Source of the DNA: an uncultured Bacilli bacterium
GTDB lineage: Bacteria > Bacillota_I > Bacilli_A > RF39 > UBA660
DNA: 38,052 nucleotides
Direction: 5' to 3'
Assembly (NCBI GenBank): GCA_944332265.1
Contig: CALVJQ010000014.1
Location: 1-38,052 of the forward strand
Positions within the stretch are counted from its first letter, which is position 1, and the number at the start of each line of letters is the position of its first letter. Both the position numbers and the translations under genes were made by a program. The notes beneath the pieces were generated by a model. It ran no database searches. It was not told where the DNA came from and saw only the letters and a program-made list of their open reading frames with translations. Positions 9,197 to 37,639 of this stretch are shown in pieces.

Positions 9197-9808
9197 GCCC
9201 TTTTCAATTATTTTTTTTATCTTATTCTTTATTCTTTGCATAGCATTATCAACTTGTTTTAAATCTTTACCTAATAAAGTAGCAATTTCATCATACTTTA
9301 AACCATTAATCATTAATGAATATACTTCATATTCATTATCTGATAAAGATTTCTTAATATTTGTGACTAATTCTTCTTTTTCTTCTTCTTTTACAATATT
9401 TTCCAAAGGATCATTTTCTTTATTATCAGATAATAAATCTTTTAATGGTGCCGTATAAGAACTATATATATGTTCCAAACTTAAAGAGTCATTTAATAAC
9501 TGGTTTTTTAATCGCCCAGCTTTTTTTATTGCTACTTGTAATCTTCTATCAACACATAAAGTAATAAAACTAGCTAAAGAACAATTTTTATCATCACGAT
9601 AACTATTTAAAGCATCACTAAAACCAACTAAAGCTTCTTGATATAAATCATGATAATCATAACCCAATAAATTAGCTATTCTCATATATTTTTTCATTTC
9701 AATATTAATAATATATTGATATTTCATAAATAAATAATCTTTTGCTTCATCTGAAGATTCATGAATCATATTAATTAATTCATTATCATTAACTTCATTA
9801 TAATCCAT
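9194..9808 (-). CDS. sigH: RNA polymerase sigma factor of the SigH type
   Basis: Sigma-70 family factor of 204 residues. Region 2 spans about 24-95 (LGYDYHDLYQEALVGFSDAL, then SFITLCVDRRLQVAIKKA). Region 4 spans about 150-200 (LSDNEYEVYSLM, EIATLLGKDLKQVDNAMQRI). The region 4 tail VDNAMQRIKNKIKK closely follows the SigH pattern of Bacillus and Listeria. Synteny agrees: rlmB upstream, secE and nusG downstream, as in Bacillus. In Bacillus SigH drives early sporulation genes, in Staphylococcus competence genes; the role here is unknown. The start follows an AGGTTTAG-type site, 8 bases after the rlmB stop. Cotranscribed with mrnC and rlmB. Confidence 0.88.
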   Translation of the reverse strand: MDYNEVNDNELINMIHESSDEAKDYLFMKYQYIINIEMKKYMRIANLLGYDYHDLYQEALVGFSDALNSYRDDKNCSLASFITLCVDRRLQVAIKKAGRLKNQLLNDSLSLEHIYSSYTAPLKDLLSDNKENDPLENIVKEEEKEELVTNIKKSLSDNEYEVYSLMINGLKYDEIATLLGKDLKQVDNAMQRIKNKIKKIIEKG

Positions 9809-9816
9809 TACTAAAC

Positions 9817-10500
9817 CTACTTATTTACAATTCCATAAATCAAAATAGCTGCCGCAACTGAAGCATTTAAACTATTTACATGACCATATTGAGGAATAGC
9901 TAATATTTGATCACAATTCTTCTTAACCAATCTACCTACTCCATTACCTTCACTACCTATAATTAATAAAACTTTATCAGCAAAAGACACATTTTTATAA
10001 TTTTCTCCATCCATATCTGCTGCATATACAAAATATCCATTATCTTTAAATTCATTTATTACATTAACTAAGTTATTAACCATTGCAATATTCACATGCT
10101 CTAATGCCCCAGCACTGGTTTTCATAACTGTTGCTGTAACAGAAACACTTCTATCCTTAGGAATAATAATCGATTTTATACCAGCCGCTTCACATGTTCT
10201 TATAATAGCTCCAAAGTTATGTGGGTCTTCCAAATGATCTAACATTACAACTACTTTATCATTTAGCATTGTATGAAAATCAATATATTCAAAATCATCA
10301 ACAACAATAATAATTCCTTGATGTCTTCCTTCAACCATTCCATCCATTTTTTTTATATCCATAAAAGAATAACTAATTTTATTATCTTTAATAAAATTAA
10401 TAATATCTTTATCATTAAAATTATTAGCTAAATAAACTTTTTTAATAGTTTTAACATTATCACGTAATTCATTAAAAACATTTTTACCAAATACTTTCAT
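9817..10500 (-). CDS. rlmB: 23S rRNA (guanosine-2'-O-)-methyltransferase RlmB (TrmH family)
   Basis: SpoU/TrmH-type enzyme with a trefoil knot that methylates the 2'-O of a guanosine in 23S rRNA using SAM. Seen: a short N-terminal RNA-binding domain ending in EGRHQGI (57-63), motif 1 DPHNFGAIIRTCEAAG (92-107), motif 2 LLIIGSEGNGVG (178-189) and motif 3 IPQYGHVNSLNASVAAAI (202-219). At 227 residues it is slightly shorter than the usual 245. Its binding site AGGAG is made from the last codons of mrnC, and the two genes are one base apart. Confidence 0.92.
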   Translation of the reverse strand: MKVFGKNVFNELRDNVKTIKKVYLANNFNDKDIINFIKDNKISYSFMDIKKMDGMVEGRHQGIIIVVDDFEYIDFHTMLNDKVVVMLDHLEDPHNFGAIIRTCEAAGIKSIIIPKDRSVSVTATVMKTSAGALEHVNIAMVNNLVNVINEFKDNGYFVYAADMDGENYKNVSFADKVLLIIGSEGNGVGRLVKKNCDQILAIPQYGHVNSLNASVAAAILIYGIVNK

Positions 10501-10501
10501 T

Positions 10502-10864
10502 TTACTCTCCTAATATAAATTCCATTATCTCTTTAATACGTTCATTATTATGTTCAAAATAAAGTTTGCCAATTAAAGTTTCCAACCCCGTTGCTAAACG
10601 ATAAGTTACAATATCTGTATGTTTCTTTTTAGGACCTTTAGCATTACGCCCCCATTTAATTATCGCCAATTCATCTTCCGTTAAAAATTTACATTCTTCC
10701 ATTCTTTCCAAGTGTCTTCGTTGACTCCTAGCACTTACATAATCTAAACTACGTTGTTGTAACTCGCCAATTTTTGAAATTCCCCTACGAATTAAATTTT
10801 CCCTAACATATTGCTCATATATAGTATCACCCATATAAGCTAGTATCAAAGGACTATCAATCAT
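10502..10864 (-). CDS. mrnC: Mini-ribonuclease 3
   Basis: RNase III-like dimeric enzyme without a double-stranded RNA binding domain; in Bacillus it matures 23S rRNA ends. I start it at ATG 10864-10862 (MIDSPLILAYMGDTIYEQ), after GGTGGTGAG; upstream reading is unsupported. The product is 120 residues. The catalytic-core motif LILAYMGDTIYEQYVRENL (6-24) has the conserved Asp, and WGRNAKGPKK and TDIVTYRLATGLETLIG are also typical. In Bacillus the order is cysS-mrnC-rlmB-yacP-sigH; here cysS is 19 kb away and yacP is missing. Confidence 0.93.
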   Translation of the reverse strand: MIDSPLILAYMGDTIYEQYVRENLIRRGISKIGELQQRSLDYVSARSQRRHLERMEECKFLTEDELAIIKWGRNAKGPKKKHTDIVTYRLATGLETLIGKLYFEHNNERIKEIMEFILGE

Positions 10865-27955: not shown

Positions 27956-27982
27956 TATAAAAAAAGGCAATTCCTTGCCTTT
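27956..27982 (-). terminator. Terminator after the exported protein gene
   Basis: An 8-bp stem (AAAGGCAA at 27982-27975 with TTGCCTTT at 27970-27963), 4-base loop and Ts on the minus strand, overlapping the stop codon at 27981. Confidence 0.88.
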
Positions 27983-28946
27983 ATTCTAATTCTAAATACT
28001 GACGTGGTCCCACTAATACTACATTATCTTCATTATCTAAATACATCGAAGAATAAAATACTAAATTAGCATAATCACCTTCATAATCTTCCTTATCAAA
28101 AGGAACCACACATTCATTTGTATTATCACTACATAAATAACTAATATTAATTAAATAACTATCAGCATAAGTAACACCTCTAAATTTATCTTTTCCATTG
28201 TTACTAACTAAAGTCACTTCAAAATCACGTAAATTATCCCCAACTATTTTTCCTTCATTTAATAGATAATTCTTTACCTTTTCCGTATAAATCTCATTTA
28301 ATTGTTCAAAATAAACTCCACTATTTTTAAAAGAAAAAACATTATAAATTTCATTATATTTATTTATTGATATATATAATTTAATATTATTATAATCATC
28401 GAATTCTTTATCATATTTAAAACAATCATTACTTCCATCTTTACATATTACAGATAAACTTAATAAATAATCACTTCCACCTTCATCATTTTCTGAATCA
28501 GTAACAAAATCATTAATAACTAAAGATTCTAAATTACTTTTATCTAATTTTTCATTCTTTATTTCATAATCAACAAATAATTCATATAAAAAATTTCGAA
28601 AATCATTTTCATTAGGCTCTTCACAAGTTTTATATAATACAGACCCAATATATCTTTCCCCGCTATCACAATATAAAACTTTATAACCTAAACCATTAAA
28701 CAAAGTCCCTCTCTCAACTTTACTAGAGATTGCAAAAATTGGTTTGCCTCCTACAAAATTAACACGCCAAAAATCAAATAATATTACTCCTAAAATACAT
28801 AATACTACTATTACTAATATTGTTATATTACGATGCCTCTTCTTTAAACGATTAAATTCATTTACAACAGCATTTTTATCATTAACGTCTACTCCATAAA
28901 ATTCATTTTTAGATGAATCTATACGCTTTTTACCTATTATATTCAT
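27981..28946 (-). CDS. Single-pass exported protein of unknown function
   Basis: No family recognised. The 321 residues have a basic cytoplasmic stretch (about 1-40, with RLKKRHRN), one membrane helix at about 41-62 (ITILVIVVLCILGVILF), and an outside domain of about 255 residues. The outside part has several Cys (VLYCDSGER, YKTCEEPNE, VICKDGSNDC, YLCSDNTNEC) that could form disulfides, and it looks like two similar halves: VICKDGSNDCFKYDKE and YLCSDNTNECVVPFDKE occur in comparable settings. It may be a duplicated domain. The start follows a GAGGGTG site; a TGGTATAAT extended -10 lies upstream. Confidence 0.62.
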   Translation of the reverse strand: MNIIGKKRIDSSKNEFYGVDVNDKNAVVNEFNRLKKRHRNITILVIVVLCILGVILFDFWRVNFVGGKPIFAISSKVERGTLFNGLGYKVLYCDSGERYIGSVLYKTCEEPNENDFRNFLYELFVDYEIKNEKLDKSNLESLVINDFVTDSENDEGGSDYLLSLSVICKDGSNDCFKYDKEFDDYNNIKLYISINKYNEIYNVFSFKNSGVYFEQLNEIYTEKVKNYLLNEGKIVGDNLRDFEVTLVSNNGKDKFRGVTYADSYLINISYLCSDNTNECVVPFDKEDYEGDYANLVFYSSMYLDNEDNVVLVGPRQYLELE

Positions 28947-28985: not shown

Positions 28986-29010
28986 TAAAAAAAAGAGAGC
29001 TAACCTCTCC
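28986..29010 (-). terminator. Terminator after the pseudo-metallopeptidase gene
   Basis: Minus strand GAGAG (29009-29005) pairs with CTCTC (28999-28995), 5-base loop, then nine Ts. It includes the last codons and stop of the gene at 29000. Confidence 0.85.
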
Positions 29011-29671
29011 TAATACTATCAAGTAAATTTTTAACCCCTTTATTAATAAGTAAAATTACTCGAGATATTTCTGAAAAAGCCATCATATTACATATTTTTT
29101 GTAAATATTCCAATTCTTTTTCATCTACTATTTTATATTTTTCTCCATTAGAAATTGCTTGTTTAGCTATCTTAAAACCTACTGGTACCATAACAATTTC
29201 ATATAATAAAACTAAACTAAATAACACCAAAGCAACCATCAAAATTCCTTCATCTAACATAAAAACCCACATTAAAAGAATAATACCTATTATTATATAA
29301 CCAAATTCAACAAAATTATCTAACATTCCCTTTGTTTGAATAACTGATTTATCATTTTTATTCATAATTGCTTGAATTGTAAAATATAAAGCAACTGCTG
29401 TTGAATATATTGAAGTTCCATAATAAACACTAGAAGAAAGGCGAACAACTTCTTGTTTACTATCAAAATGATCAGTTAAATCCCCTGTTTTTATCTCTAC
29501 TATATAAATGTCTTTCATATCATAACTATCCAATAACTTACGAGAAACTTCAAATCCAGTTAACTTACTATTAGCTTCAATATTCTTATATTTATCACTG
29601 AAAATTTTCTCAATAATAAAGCATAAAAAGGGAATTAACAATAAAATAATCAATATATATAAACTATTCAT
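29000..29671 (-). CDS. YugP-type membrane metallopeptidase homologue, catalytic residues lost
   Basis: Homologue of the YugP/PF04298 zinc metallopeptidases (about 225 residues; 223 here). An N-terminal membrane helix (about 3-21) is followed by LTGFEVSRKLLDSYDMKDI (37-55), IKTGDLTDHFDSKQEVVRLS and VYYGTSIYSTAVAL, matching the family in order. Where family members have AHExxHAxQ, this protein has LYFTIQA: the HExxH site is YFTIQ (96-100, codons 29386-29372). The downstream PVEF, whose Glu should be the third zinc ligand, is PVGF (Gly165, codon 29179-29177). It should not bind catalytic zinc. The frame is intact, with about three membrane helices. It follows cysS by 9 bases, with AGGAGG overlapping the cysS stop. 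Confidence 0.8.
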   Translation of the reverse strand: MNSLYILIILLLIPFLCFIIEKIFSDKYKNIEANSKLTGFEVSRKLLDSYDMKDIYIVEIKTGDLTDHFDSKQEVVRLSSSVYYGTSIYSTAVALYFTIQAIMNKNDKSVIQTKGMLDNFVEFGYIIIGIILLMWVFMLDEGILMVALVLFSLVLLYEIVMVPVGFKIAKQAISNGEKYKIVDEKELEYLQKICNMMAFSEISRVILLINKGVKNLLDSIRRG

Positions 29672-29680
29672 AAAGTCCTC

Positions 29681-30991
29681 CTATATTATTTTACGTTCAA
29701 TTAATATATTTCTCATTTTATCAGCATTTTCATAATCTTTATTATTTCTATATTCTAACCATTTATTATATATATCCTTATCATCTTCACTCAATGTAAT
29801 AAAATCATATTCTAATCCTAAGATATAATTTATTAACATTATCTTATCATATACATCACTAAATTCTTCTTTAGCTCTTATTTTATTATTAAGTTCTTTA
29901 ATTAATTCTAATAAATAAGTTATCAAATTAGAAGTATTAAAATCTTCATCCATTATTTGATTAATTTTCTCATCTTTTTTAATATTGCCTACTTTAATAC
30001 CATGTAACTGAATTTCTAAATTAGCTTGTTTTAAAGCATTATATATCTTATCATTTATCGTTCCACATTCTTTAAATAATTGTTCTGTAAAATCAAAAGG
30101 CAATCTATAACTAGTCTTTAAAATACTAAGACGAATTATATTAGCTGGATATTTTTCTAATAATTCATGAGCTGTAATAAAATTACCTAAAGATTTACTC
30201 ATTTTAACTCCATTAACCATTACATGACCATTATGCATCCAATAGTTAGCTAAATTTGTTCCAGCAGCCGCTTCACTTTGCGCCATTTCATTCTCATGAT
30301 GAGGAAATTTTAAATCTATTCCACCACCATGGATATCTATATTATCTCCAAATAATTTATTTATCATAACTACACATTCAGTATGCCATCCGGGACGTCC
30401 TTTTCCAAAAGGCGAATCCCAAGTAATACCTTCTTTAGTTTTTTTCCACAAAACAAAATCAAATGGATTTTCTTTATTTTCATCTACTTCTACTCTATTA
30501 CCAGCATCTAAATCGCTTAATACTTGCTTACTTAACTTACCATAATCTTCTATTTTACTAACCCTAAAATATACATCATCACCACTTTGATAAGCATATC
30601 CTTTATCCATAAGTAATTTTATATAAGCAATTATTTCATCCATAGTTTCTGTTACTTTAGGACGATAATCTATATCTAAACAATTTAAAGCTTTAACATC
30701 ATCTAAATATATTTTAATATATTTTTCAGTCAATTCTTTCTCTGTAATTCCTGCCTCTTTAGCTGCTTTAATAATTTTATCATCAACATCAGTAAAATTA
30801 CTTGCATATTTAATATTATAACCACAATATTTAAAATATCTATATACCATATCAAAGATGATAACAGGACACATATTTCCTACATGAGCATAACTATATA
30901 CTGTTGGTCCACAAACATACATATTAATTTCCCCATCTTTAATTGGTTTAAATTCCTCAATTTTTCCACTTAATGTATTAAACATTTTCAT
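29681..30991 (-). CDS. cysS: Cysteinyl-tRNA synthetase
   Basis: Class I enzyme that charges tRNA-Cys. I start it at ATG 30991-30989 (MKMFNTLSGKIEEF), after GGAAGGTGAT. The 436 residues show CGPTVYSYAHVGN near residue 27 (zinc-ligand Cys plus the HIGH-like HVGN) and WHTECVVM (Cys ligand). GGGIDLKFPHHENEMAQ supplies the His/Glu ligands, and VKMSKSLGN is the KMSKS loop. The C-terminus is slightly short of the usual 460-470. In Bacillus it sits upstream of mrnC; here it is about 19 kb away and cotranscribed with the pseudo-metallopeptidase. Confidence 0.97.
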   Translation of the reverse strand: MKMFNTLSGKIEEFKPIKDGEINMYVCGPTVYSYAHVGNMCPVIIFDMVYRYFKYCGYNIKYASNFTDVDDKIIKAAKEAGITEKELTEKYIKIYLDDVKALNCLDIDYRPKVTETMDEIIAYIKLLMDKGYAYQSGDDVYFRVSKIEDYGKLSKQVLSDLDAGNRVEVDENKENPFDFVLWKKTKEGITWDSPFGKGRPGWHTECVVMINKLFGDNIDIHGGGIDLKFPHHENEMAQSEAAAGTNLANYWMHNGHVMVNGVKMSKSLGNFITAHELLEKYPANIIRLSILKTSYRLPFDFTEQLFKECGTINDKIYNALKQANLEIQLHGIKVGNIKKDEKINQIMDEDFNTSNLITYLLELIKELNNKIRAKEEFSDVYDKIMLINYILGLEYDFITLSEDDKDIYNKWLEYRNNKDYENADKMRNILIERKII

Positions 30992-31041
30992 ATTATCACC
31001 TTCCATATATATAAGTGCTTTTATTTTAGCATAAATTAATC

Positions 31042-31072: not shown

Positions 31073-31435
31073 TTATCCAAAATCTTGTATATTTTTATTA
31101 CTTAATATATCTAAATATATTTTTTCAATATCATAACCCCCAACTAATAATAAATTATAAGCTATACTATCATCATTTGTTAAAATCTTAATAAGAACAT
31201 CATATATATTAAAAGATTCATTTTTTATCTTTCTTAATAATGGAGTATATAAAGTATATTCACTTTCTTTATGTGATTGACCAATTACTTTTATAATATC
31301 TTTTTTAAAAGTTTCATATGTAATAAATTCATTTCCAAATAACTTTAAAAAAGCTAAAAATATATGTTCTGTCCCAACATATGGTTGACGCAATTCTTTC
31401 ATTTCTCTTTCTGCTATCAAAAATAATTCATCCAT
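31073..31435 (-). CDS. Stand-alone Clp N-terminal (Clp-R) domain protein
   Basis: The 120 residues match only the N-terminal double repeat of ClpC/ClpB-type chaperones. The first repeat has LIAEREMKELRQPYVGTEHI (about 6-25, with the hallmark VGTEHIFLAFLK). A weaker second repeat is at about 65-115 (PLLRKIKNESFNIYDVLIKI, then LLLVGGYDIEK). There is no ATPase domain and no sign that the gene continues: a good terminator follows and cysS comes next. In full ClpC this domain binds adaptors such as MecA or McsB and, in B. subtilis, phospho-arginine. A free copy could act as an adaptor or decoy. The start follows AGGTGAT. Confidence 0.75.
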   Translation of the reverse strand: MDELFLIAEREMKELRQPYVGTEHIFLAFLKLFGNEFITYETFKKDIIKVIGQSHKESEYTLYTPLLRKIKNESFNIYDVLIKILTNDDSIAYNLLLVGGYDIEKIYLDILSNKNIQDFG

Positions 31436-34822: not shown

Positions 34823-35764
34823 TTAATCATCTATAAAACTTAAAGTTAAACACATTCTACTGTTTTCTGGTTTATCTAATTCTTTTTTTACTTCTTTTAC
34901 TTTATCAATTAAATCTTTAACTAATTTAACTGTTTCATTTTCCCCATTATATATATCTATTATATCTTTTGGAATTTCACTATTAAACCCATATTGCTTA
35001 ATTAAATCAACTATTTCTTCTCTATGAATTTGCTTTGCCAAAGGCCAAGTATCTGAAAAACTACCATTTGGTAAAATAAACCTTGTTTTAATATACCTTA
35101 AAACGTCTCTTTCTTTATATAAATTATAAGCTCCCTCATGTAATACTCTTGTTAAACCAAATTCATTAATTGCCATCAATTTATAACCAATTTGTTCATA
35201 ATCGAATTTTAAACTTTTAAAATATTTAGCTCTTCTCGGTAATAGCCCAACATGATAATTTTTTGAATTTTTATACTTTTCATCTATATAAACAGCATCA
35301 ATAACCTTTGTATGAAAATGATATACTTTATTAAAAGAACCTTCATTATACATTTGTTGATACCTTAATTCACATAAGACATCATTTTGTGGATCATATT
35401 GTTTATAAGATATACAACCCGTATAACCTTCATCATCTGGCACCGGCAAAGAATAAAAATTCAAAACATGTTCATGATTATTTTCATCAATAAGGTAAAA
35501 ATTATCACTAAAATATACCTGAAAAGGTTCAATATATACTGAAATTAAATTATCTTCTTCATCTACACTAAAATATATAGGATTATTATCTTTATCTATA
35601 TAAACACAACCATTTTCACATCGTGCTAAAAAACATAACTTATCATCAGACAAAATAGCAAACATTTTAATATCTTCTTTTCCAAATACATCATATAAAA
35701 TATTCATTACATTAGGAATTTTAGCAACTACATCATCATCACATTCTATAATCTTATTTTGCAT
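34823..35764 (-). CDS. Tandem paralogue 3 of an uncharacterised three-gene family
   Basis: No family recognised. The 313 residues share a layout with the two genes upstream: a mixed beta-rich N-terminal half, a GYTGCISYKQYD and LCELRYQQMYN segment in the middle (about 138-165), an INEFGLTRVLHEGAYNLYK segment later, and a helical end (EIVDLIKQYGFNSEIPKDI). No membrane segment or signal, so probably cytoplasmic. I start it at the second of two adjacent ATGs (35764-35762), six bases after GGAGG. The start lies inside the last codons of its neighbour, so translation is coupled. Confidence 0.65.
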   Translation of the reverse strand: MQNKIIECDDDVVAKIPNVMNILYDVFGKEDIKMFAILSDDKLCFLARCENGCVYIDKDNNPIYFSVDEEDNLISVYIEPFQVYFSDNFYLIDENNHEHVLNFYSLPVPDDEGYTGCISYKQYDPQNDVLCELRYQQMYNEGSFNKVYHFHTKVIDAVYIDEKYKNSKNYHVGLLPRRAKYFKSLKFDYEQIGYKLMAINEFGLTRVLHEGAYNLYKERDVLRYIKTRFILPNGSFSDTWPLAKQIHREEIVDLIKQYGFNSEIPKDIIDIYNGENETVKLVKDLIDKVKEVKKELDKPENSRMCLTLSFIDD

Positions 35765-36704
35765 CATTATCCTCCATAGTAAAATTTAATTTTCTTTCTT
35801 CCTCGACTGAACCCATCTCATATTCTTTAATAAAACTAGCAATTTCTTTATACTCTTCAAGTATTTGATTATTACCATTAACCGAATCAAATAGATAATC
35901 AGGAATAGAAAATCTAAACCCTAATTTCTCAATATAAGATTTCATCTGTTCAAAAGTATTATGAACTAAAGGTAAAAACACTAATGCTTGATTATCTTTA
36001 ATAGTTCTATTAAATTTAAAATATCGATGTAATGTCTCTTCTTTTTGTAATTCATATGCCCCATGTTTTAAAAAATTAAATAGTCCATATTCTCTAATCG
36101 TAACCCAATTATAATTAAGAAAATCATTATCATAATTGCACTCCCCTTTGATATACCTATCGGTCTTCAAAGGTCCATAAGTATTCCCATTTTTAACAGA
36201 TAATCCATGTTCAACAATAATTTGAAAAGGCATTCTCTCTTTTGCGTAATAATAAACATTTTTTTTATGATTATACATTTGCTGATAAGTTAATGTAAGT
36301 CTTTTATTACTTTTTTCATCAAATTGAACATATATAATAATCCCATCATATCCATCATTATCTACTCCATTTGACCTTTTATATAATGATAAAGATTGTA
36401 CTATCGAACTATCTCTTTCTTGAACAGTTAACAAATCATCATACATCGTTAATTCATAATCATCAAAGCCAGCTTGAAAGATATTATAATTATCATCTAA
36501 AGAAAACATTTCATAACTAATATTTTTACCTTCTAAGGTATACAAAATACATAAATTATTTCTTCTTTGTAAAATTTTTGTCTGACCATTAACTTCTATT
36601 TTAAAATAAATCCCCTCTAAATCACCAAACAAATCATTTATAAAATAAAATATCAAATTGTATTTTGGAATATCCATTTCTTTTAATTCTTTAATCGTTA
36701 CCAT
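35754..36704 (-). CDS. Tandem paralogue 2 of an uncharacterised three-gene family
   Basis: No family recognised. The 316 residues match the downstream gene in pattern: GYDGIIIYVQFD then LTLTYQQMYNHKK (about 118-148), IREYGLFNFLKHGAYELQKE (about 200-219), and a C-terminal SYIEKLGFRFSIPDYLFD. The two are clear homologues of low identity. No signal or membrane segment. The start follows AGGTGG, which overlaps the TAG stop of the gene upstream. It overlaps the downstream gene by 11-14 bases. All three form one operon. Confidence 0.66.
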   Translation of the reverse strand: MVTIKELKEMDIPKYNLIFYFINDLFGDLEGIYFKIEVNGQTKILQRRNNLCILYTLEGKNISYEMFSLDDNYNIFQAGFDDYELTMYDDLLTVQERDSSIVQSLSLYKRSNGVDNDGYDGIIIYVQFDEKSNKRLTLTYQQMYNHKKNVYYYAKERMPFQIIVEHGLSVKNGNTYGPLKTDRYIKGECNYDNDFLNYNWVTIREYGLFNFLKHGAYELQKEETLHRYFKFNRTIKDNQALVFLPLVHNTFEQMKSYIEKLGFRFSIPDYLFDSVNGNNQILEEYKEIASFIKEYEMGSVEEERKLNFTMEDNDAK

Positions 36705-36715
36705 AATTTAACCAC

Positions 36716-37639
36716 CTATTTCCCTATTTTAAATTCTAAATTCTTATTATAAACATCTATAATAGCTTGATATTCTTCTATTATAAATTCTCTATTATTA
36801 AAAAAATCTATTAAAGTATCAGGTATATTTAATAAAAAACCTTTACTTAAAACTATATCCTTCATATCCTGCACTTTAATCCCCTTTAAAAAAGGAAAAC
36901 CAGTTATAGTTATATAATCTCCTATATGAAATAACTCCCTATAAAATCTTGAAAAAGACACTTCATTATCATATAACGAAACAGTATTATCACTTGTAAT
37001 CGCATCAATACCAAACTCTCTTAATGCAACCAAGTCATATTGCCATCTATTATCCATGATATCAAAATCCAAACGATAAAAAGCATCTTTTCTTTTTCCA
37101 AAATAACTTTTACCTAAAACTCCATTTTCAAAAATATACAAAAAAGGATCTCTAATATAAGCACCATATAATTTTTTATTATTAATTTCTCCATGAGTCA
37201 TTTGCTCATAACGCATAGTTAAACTTATATCATCATTAGCTTTATATTGCCCAAAGTCTAAAACCGCATTATTTAAAACTCCATTTAATTCATTAATATC
37301 CTTACTTAATTGCAAATAATATCTATTTTTCATTTCATCAATTAACATAACTCCATTATCTAATAAAACGAATTGATAATCTTTATCAAAAACTTTTTTA
37401 GTAAAAGATATTAACTGCATATTATCATCAACCTGCATAATGTTATATATAACATCATGCTTACTATTCAAATATAAACAGAAAAAAATATTATTACTAT
37501 AAAACAAATAATACTCTTTATTATCTATTAAAACTGAAAATCCATCAGCTATATCCCATCCAAGCATTTGAATTGTTGCTAATATTCTTTTACCTAATTT
37601 AGTACTCGTATCTATGTTAATTCTGCCAATATCAACCAT
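36716..37639 (-). CDS. Tandem paralogue 1 of an uncharacterised three-gene family
   Basis: No family recognised; the most divergent of the three. The 307 residues keep the shared landmarks: FGQYKANDDISLTMRYEQMT (about 129-148), VALREFGIDAITSDNTVSLY (about 205-224), and VLSKGFLLNIPDTLIDFFNN near the end. The start follows GGTGGAG. It is the first gene of the operon and has a good promoter of its own just upstream. Probably cytoplasmic. Confidence 0.64.
   Translation of the reverse strand: MVDIGRINIDTSTKLGKRILATIQMLGWDIADGFSVLIDNKEYYLFYSNNIFFCLYLNSKHDVIYNIMQVDDNMQLISFTKKVFDKDYQFVLLDNGVMLIDEMKNRYYLQLSKDINELNGVLNNAVLDFGQYKANDDISLTMRYEQMTHGEINNKKLYGAYIRDPFLYIFENGVLGKSYFGKRKDAFYRLDFDIMDNRWQYDLVALREFGIDAITSDNTVSLYDNEVSFSRFYRELFHIGDYITITGFPFLKGIKVQDMKDIVLSKGFLLNIPDTLIDFFNNREFIIEEYQAIIDVYNKNLEFKIGK

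Follow-up and report, generated by a model that had tools for sequence, protein, structure and literature searches.

Does a YugP-like gene that has lost the zinc site of its family still encode a working protein, or is it a gene in decay? The question is raised by a 223-residue PF04298 member without HExxH, read from 29671 to 29000 on the minus strand in the open reading frame list of the window, by which we mean the whole stretch of 38,052 nucleotides analysed here, from the genome that we call G000 (all window features given below lie on the minus strand). Proteins of the YugP type occur widely and have hardly been studied; YugP itself is classified as MEROPS family M65 (PMC3890501).

The zinc site and the predicted fold

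An earlier note on this DNA held that the protein follows the PF04298/YugP family almost end to end, and the profile comparison agrees. Pfam PF04298 (Zn_peptidase_2) covers residues 5–200 (E 8.5e-33; profile positions 3–198 of 218) with 114.2 bits against a curated cut-off of 27, which places the protein inside the family. The active copy of G005 reaches 277 bits, and most HExxH-bearing copies found score roughly 230–290. No NCBIfam family matches the window protein.

The changes from HExxH to YFTIQ and from PVEF to PVGF, both proposed before, are borne out by the family alignment. YFTIQ (residues 96–100; 29372–29386) stands in a predicted helix spanning residues 88–106, and Gly165 (29177–29179) takes the place of the glutamate of PVE, a residue presumed to be the third zinc ligand and invariant in 56 HExxH-bearing relatives. 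No HExxH occurs elsewhere in the window protein, whose single histidine, H68, lies outside the motif. The loss of the site is wider than first noted: the same 56 relatives all have Q103, R114, S169 and Y201 (numbered as in the window protein), and 98% of them have R171; all five differ in the window. The flanking motifs had been described as intact, which is true of the N-terminal half (GxEVxRxxLD and DHxDxxxxVVRLS, with the fold residues G39, L47, D48, G63, D67, L78 and S79 kept) but not of the C-terminal half, which has lost the PVEFxASxR and AAxTYVA blocks. Judged from the alignment, every presumed zinc ligand has been lost together with the surrounding catalytic-site residues, and we infer that the protein carries no zinc. 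A base-calling error is very unlikely, since the nearest orthologue, in G002 (Candidatus Coprovivens excrementavium, contig CALVVU010000001.1; 52% protein identity), independently lacks HExxH (YYASQ, with PLNF at the second site).

AlphaFold2 models the window protein with a mean pLDDT of 93.8 and a pTM of 0.88, and an active orthologue with a mean pLDDT of 94.8. The two predicted models were compared by the order of their elements, which is identical, and on this count the fold is shared; near residues 161 and 199, however, the model of the window protein has interrupted helices where those of the active one run through. The retained N-terminal domain core (residues 27–82, from TGFEVSRKLLD to TDHFDxxxxVVRLS; 29426–29593) comprises, according to the family alignment and AlphaFold2, helix 39–49 and strands at 56–79. 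A sequence search of the PDB returned no relative, and by sequence YugP itself has no solved structure. Foldseek on the predicted models gave weak zincin matches only (E > 0.1), namely to the mini-zincins jannalysin, abylysin and selecase and to the BlaR1 peptidase domain, and these do not amount to family membership.

The cysS neighbourhood and the constraint on the gene

Directly upstream and transcribed in the same direction lies cysS (29681–31006; PF01406, 4.8e-122), a neighbour of yugP at the loci of relatives across the family. A Shine–Dalgarno-like AGGAGG (TATAGGAGGACTTTATG; 29677–29682, give or take about a base) stands ahead of the yugP ATG and overlaps the stop codon of cysS, the gap between the genes is 9 nt, and an intrinsic-terminator-like hairpin followed by a T run (28993–29011; one found, 0.2 expected) overlaps the yugP stop codon, so that cysS and yugP look like neighbours in one transcription unit ending at about 28993. 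The link to cysS claimed earlier is thus a close one, and it holds family-wide. A 321-residue predicted membrane protein with cysteine pairs and no match in the Pfam scan, p27981 (27981–28946), adjoins cysS–yugP in most of the genus and is a possible candidate partner of the YugP-like protein. Between cysS and a DcuC-type carrier, most loci of the genus also hold a 120-residue ORF with a match to Clp_N only (31073–31435 in the window). Farther off, at 34823–37639, stand three tandem paralogous ORFs of 307–316 residues; the one that was scanned has no significant Pfam family.

The gene order of the window (lysS, the DcuC-type carrier, Clp_N, cysS, yugP, p27981) is the same in G002. Protein identity between the two genomes is 68–92% for five neighbouring genes, against the 52% of yugP, and the dS of yugP is like that of its neighbours. 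For the window–G002 pair, dN is 0.37 and dS 0.92, giving a dN/dS of 0.40 (95% bootstrap 0.26–0.57) compared with 0.13–0.27 for active pairs at like dS; these ratios, calculated by Nei–Gojobori with Jukes–Cantor correction, are approximate because dS is high. The ratio is 0.31 over residues 27–110 and 0.87 over residues 169–223. The pair G011–G014 also has dN well under dS, though its dS is saturated. Under neutral simulation about 14 in-frame stops are expected and not one of 2000 runs stayed stop-free; neither the window copy nor that of G002 has a stop or a frameshift. Constraint on the window gene is therefore weakened but real: weaker because the gene exceeds active orthologues of like dS about two- to threefold in dN, with part of the tail near neutral. 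An intact orthologue in the same place, the ratio of 0.40 and the zero stops in both copies speak for the selected pseudoenzyme, rather than a decaying gene, that the earlier note had proposed.

Losses among relatives and second copies

Of 386 genomes in this family of gut Bacilli that were searched for PF04298, 275 gave a match. The sequences read in detail were those of low scorers and second copies, so the counts that follow come from a sample biased toward low scorers and do not translate into frequencies. The cysS-linked locus is without HExxH in at least 24 genomes, spread over ten genera (g1, g9, g12, g21, g22, g63, g77, g117, g122 and g169); the locus of the inactive copy is NhaC-linked in G011 and G014. 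Each lineage has its own replacement (YFTIQ, YYASQ, HQAGH, RLSFH, YLATK, FIAMQ, REAVS, QQCAY and others). The YFTIQ/PVGF form, raised earlier as possibly conserved, was accordingly not found in these relatives, and the want of a new motif common to the lineages counts against a defined new function.

In g1, g12, g22 and g63, sister species keep HExxH at the same locus, which makes at least four separate losses likely, provided that each genus is one lineage and no copy was replaced horizontally. In the tree, the inactive copy L040 (G012) is nested among active g1 copies with support 96/87. Parsimony on this tree counts three losses, and the inactive branches, about 0.8–2.2 in length, are grouped together; this grouping looks like long-branch attraction, and for that reason we prefer the same-locus comparisons within genera over the tree count. 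Holding the window and G002 copies together with seven g1 cysS-linked copies was not rejected (p-AU 0.08). Very divergent copies occur in g77, g81, g117 and g143, and even the most divergent cysS-linked copies keep an open frame of about 205–230 codons.

One copy, in G008 (L039:5275–5958), has HQAGH with PVE kept: both presumed histidine ligands stay, only the catalytic glutamate is changed, and the protein may still bind zinc. Among genome contigs, a search with the window protein alone gave no match, and one with the window–G002 alignment gave the G002 record and two weak matches; phage records yielded 11 weak matches, unannotated and below 60% identity.

A second, active copy (B) stands elsewhere in the genome in g1, for example in G002 (L013), G014 (L029) and G011 (L023). 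Seven genomes combine an inactive copy with a high-scoring one elsewhere (G002, G011, G014, G022, G189, G363 and G415), HExxH having been read directly in five of them and deduced for G363 and G415 from scores of about 274 bits. In G189 about 5.4 kb separates the inactive copy next to cysS from the active one, both being on one strand (L106:3685–4362 and 9765–10514). In at least 11 genomes, 90–99% complete, the cysS-linked copy is inactive and no active copy accompanies it (G034, G196, G133, G253, G337, G402, G225, G093, G317, G212 and G305). The sole PF04298 copy found in the window genome is the inactive one, in an assembly with a gap at the B locus: contig C15 of G000, colinear with G002, stops within a gene at 37504, 2.1 kb before the position that the B copy takes in G002, and the region downstream of that copy was not found at high identity in G000. 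Over the last 11.5 kb of C15 (L137), identity to G002 climbs from 84% through 93% to 97% toward the contig end; where the rest of G000 was compared with G002, it stands at about 78–85%, except near fusA (92%). A recent transfer is a possible source of this rise.

A proposed role without cutting

What stands out in these observations is that the site has been lost again and again at one locus; this suggests a lasting role in which the protein need not cut. We hypothesize that the product of the window gene is a YugP (M65-type) membrane protein without catalytic activity, which selection maintains and which works through binding, and on the sequence evidence we consider this probable, short of confident. 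Peptidase activity would have become dispensable at the cysS-linked locus, in several lineages after the arrival of a second, active copy, and binding would be the function that remained to the protein. The zincin-like domain kept at the N-terminus (helix 39–49 and a three-strand sheet) may hold a peptide or a membrane-protein partner, a placement that we favor because this part has the lower dN/dS, while the helices would anchor the protein in the membrane as a scaffold or a substrate-sequestering decoy. Pairing with the active B-type copy might also occur where one is present; in species without one, the protein would act alone. A broader version is possible but doubtful, namely that cysS-linked YugP has a conserved non-catalytic function for which the peptidase is dispensable, so that its HExxH-bearing orthologues would be mainly binding proteins too. 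If the peptidase is dispensable, the active site could have disappeared many times over in separate lineages, with the protein itself retained.

Three other readings have to be weighed against a binding role. The dead copy could be a dedicated regulator, a pseudo-subunit that either heterodimerizes with the active B-type copy or competes with it for substrate. The seven genomes with both kinds of copy would fit this, as would a bacterial precedent, the heterodimer of zinc-free Csd2 and active Csd1 (PMC5053510). As the general rule that the earlier note had in mind, however, regulation of an active paralogue fails in the 11 or more genomes where the inactive cysS-linked copy is alone, and in the window genome it is the only copy found, given the gap at the B locus; we judge a dedicated regulator rather unlikely. 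Slow decay, i.e., a redundant gene that is being lost, with its frame open by chance and its translation kept only through upstream cysS, would explain why the protein has changed faster than active orthologues and its neighbours, why the C-terminal ratio is so high and why some genera hold very divergent copies. It is harder to square with the zero stops in either species at a dS of 0.92, with a confidence interval of dN/dS that stays below 1 and with the open frames of the most divergent cysS-linked copies, and we regard it as improbable. A changed enzyme, with a new active site on the old fold that is either metal-free or held by other ligands, is the least credible of the three and very improbable indeed: the protein is under selection and predicted to be fully folded, and the G008 copy retains both presumed histidines, but at the old site the window and G002 copies agree in Y96 and Q100 only, which makes no new conserved polar cluster, and the replacements differ between lineages. 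A selected, catalytically dead protein that works through binding is thus the reading that we carry forward.

Known systems offer partial parallels. The window protein resembles Bacillus subtilis YugP in its Pfam match over nearly the whole profile, its size, its membrane helices and its N-terminal motifs, but is without the HExxH, the PVE glutamate and the C-terminal catalytic-site block. Plant plastids hold FtsHi, an AAA+ family, and we know of no sequence relation between FtsHi and the window protein. In B. subtilis, deletion of yugP by itself has no effect on germination, and spore germination is delayed only in combination, foremost with loss of htrC (PMC13393411). Csd1–Csd2 of Helicobacter pylori (M23B) is alike in having a metallopeptidase homologue with incomplete metal ligands, Csd2, metal-free and paired with its active relative Csd1 (PMC5053510); the family is unrelated, however, and for the window protein pairing is hypothetical, with several genomes in which no active copy was found. 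The FtsHi pseudo-proteases (M41) are membrane metalloprotease homologues with a changed HExxH that have kept a function (PMC11266112; PMC8197885), and a review of inactive metallopeptidase homologues mentions neither M65 nor YugP (PMC11266112). Our literature search found no report of inactive PF04298/YugP members. The repeated loss of the active site at one conserved locus, beside a tRNA synthetase gene, has left pairs of active and inactive proteins in nature, through which binding and the presumed cutting could be told apart as functions of the family.

A second PF04298 paralogue without HExxH came to light in this family of gut Bacilli. It is 253–294 residues long, has a near-constant motif (AMASQKSCLAILD) together with VLKTEIKAQ, and was found at L108:3395–4204 and at L032, L081–L085, L087, L105, L107 and L109–L111. 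It does not stand beside cysS, and the five loci inspected share no neighbourhood. The protein is very similar across at least seven genera, with an eighth, g71, represented by a fragment, and may be either strongly conserved or horizontally spread.
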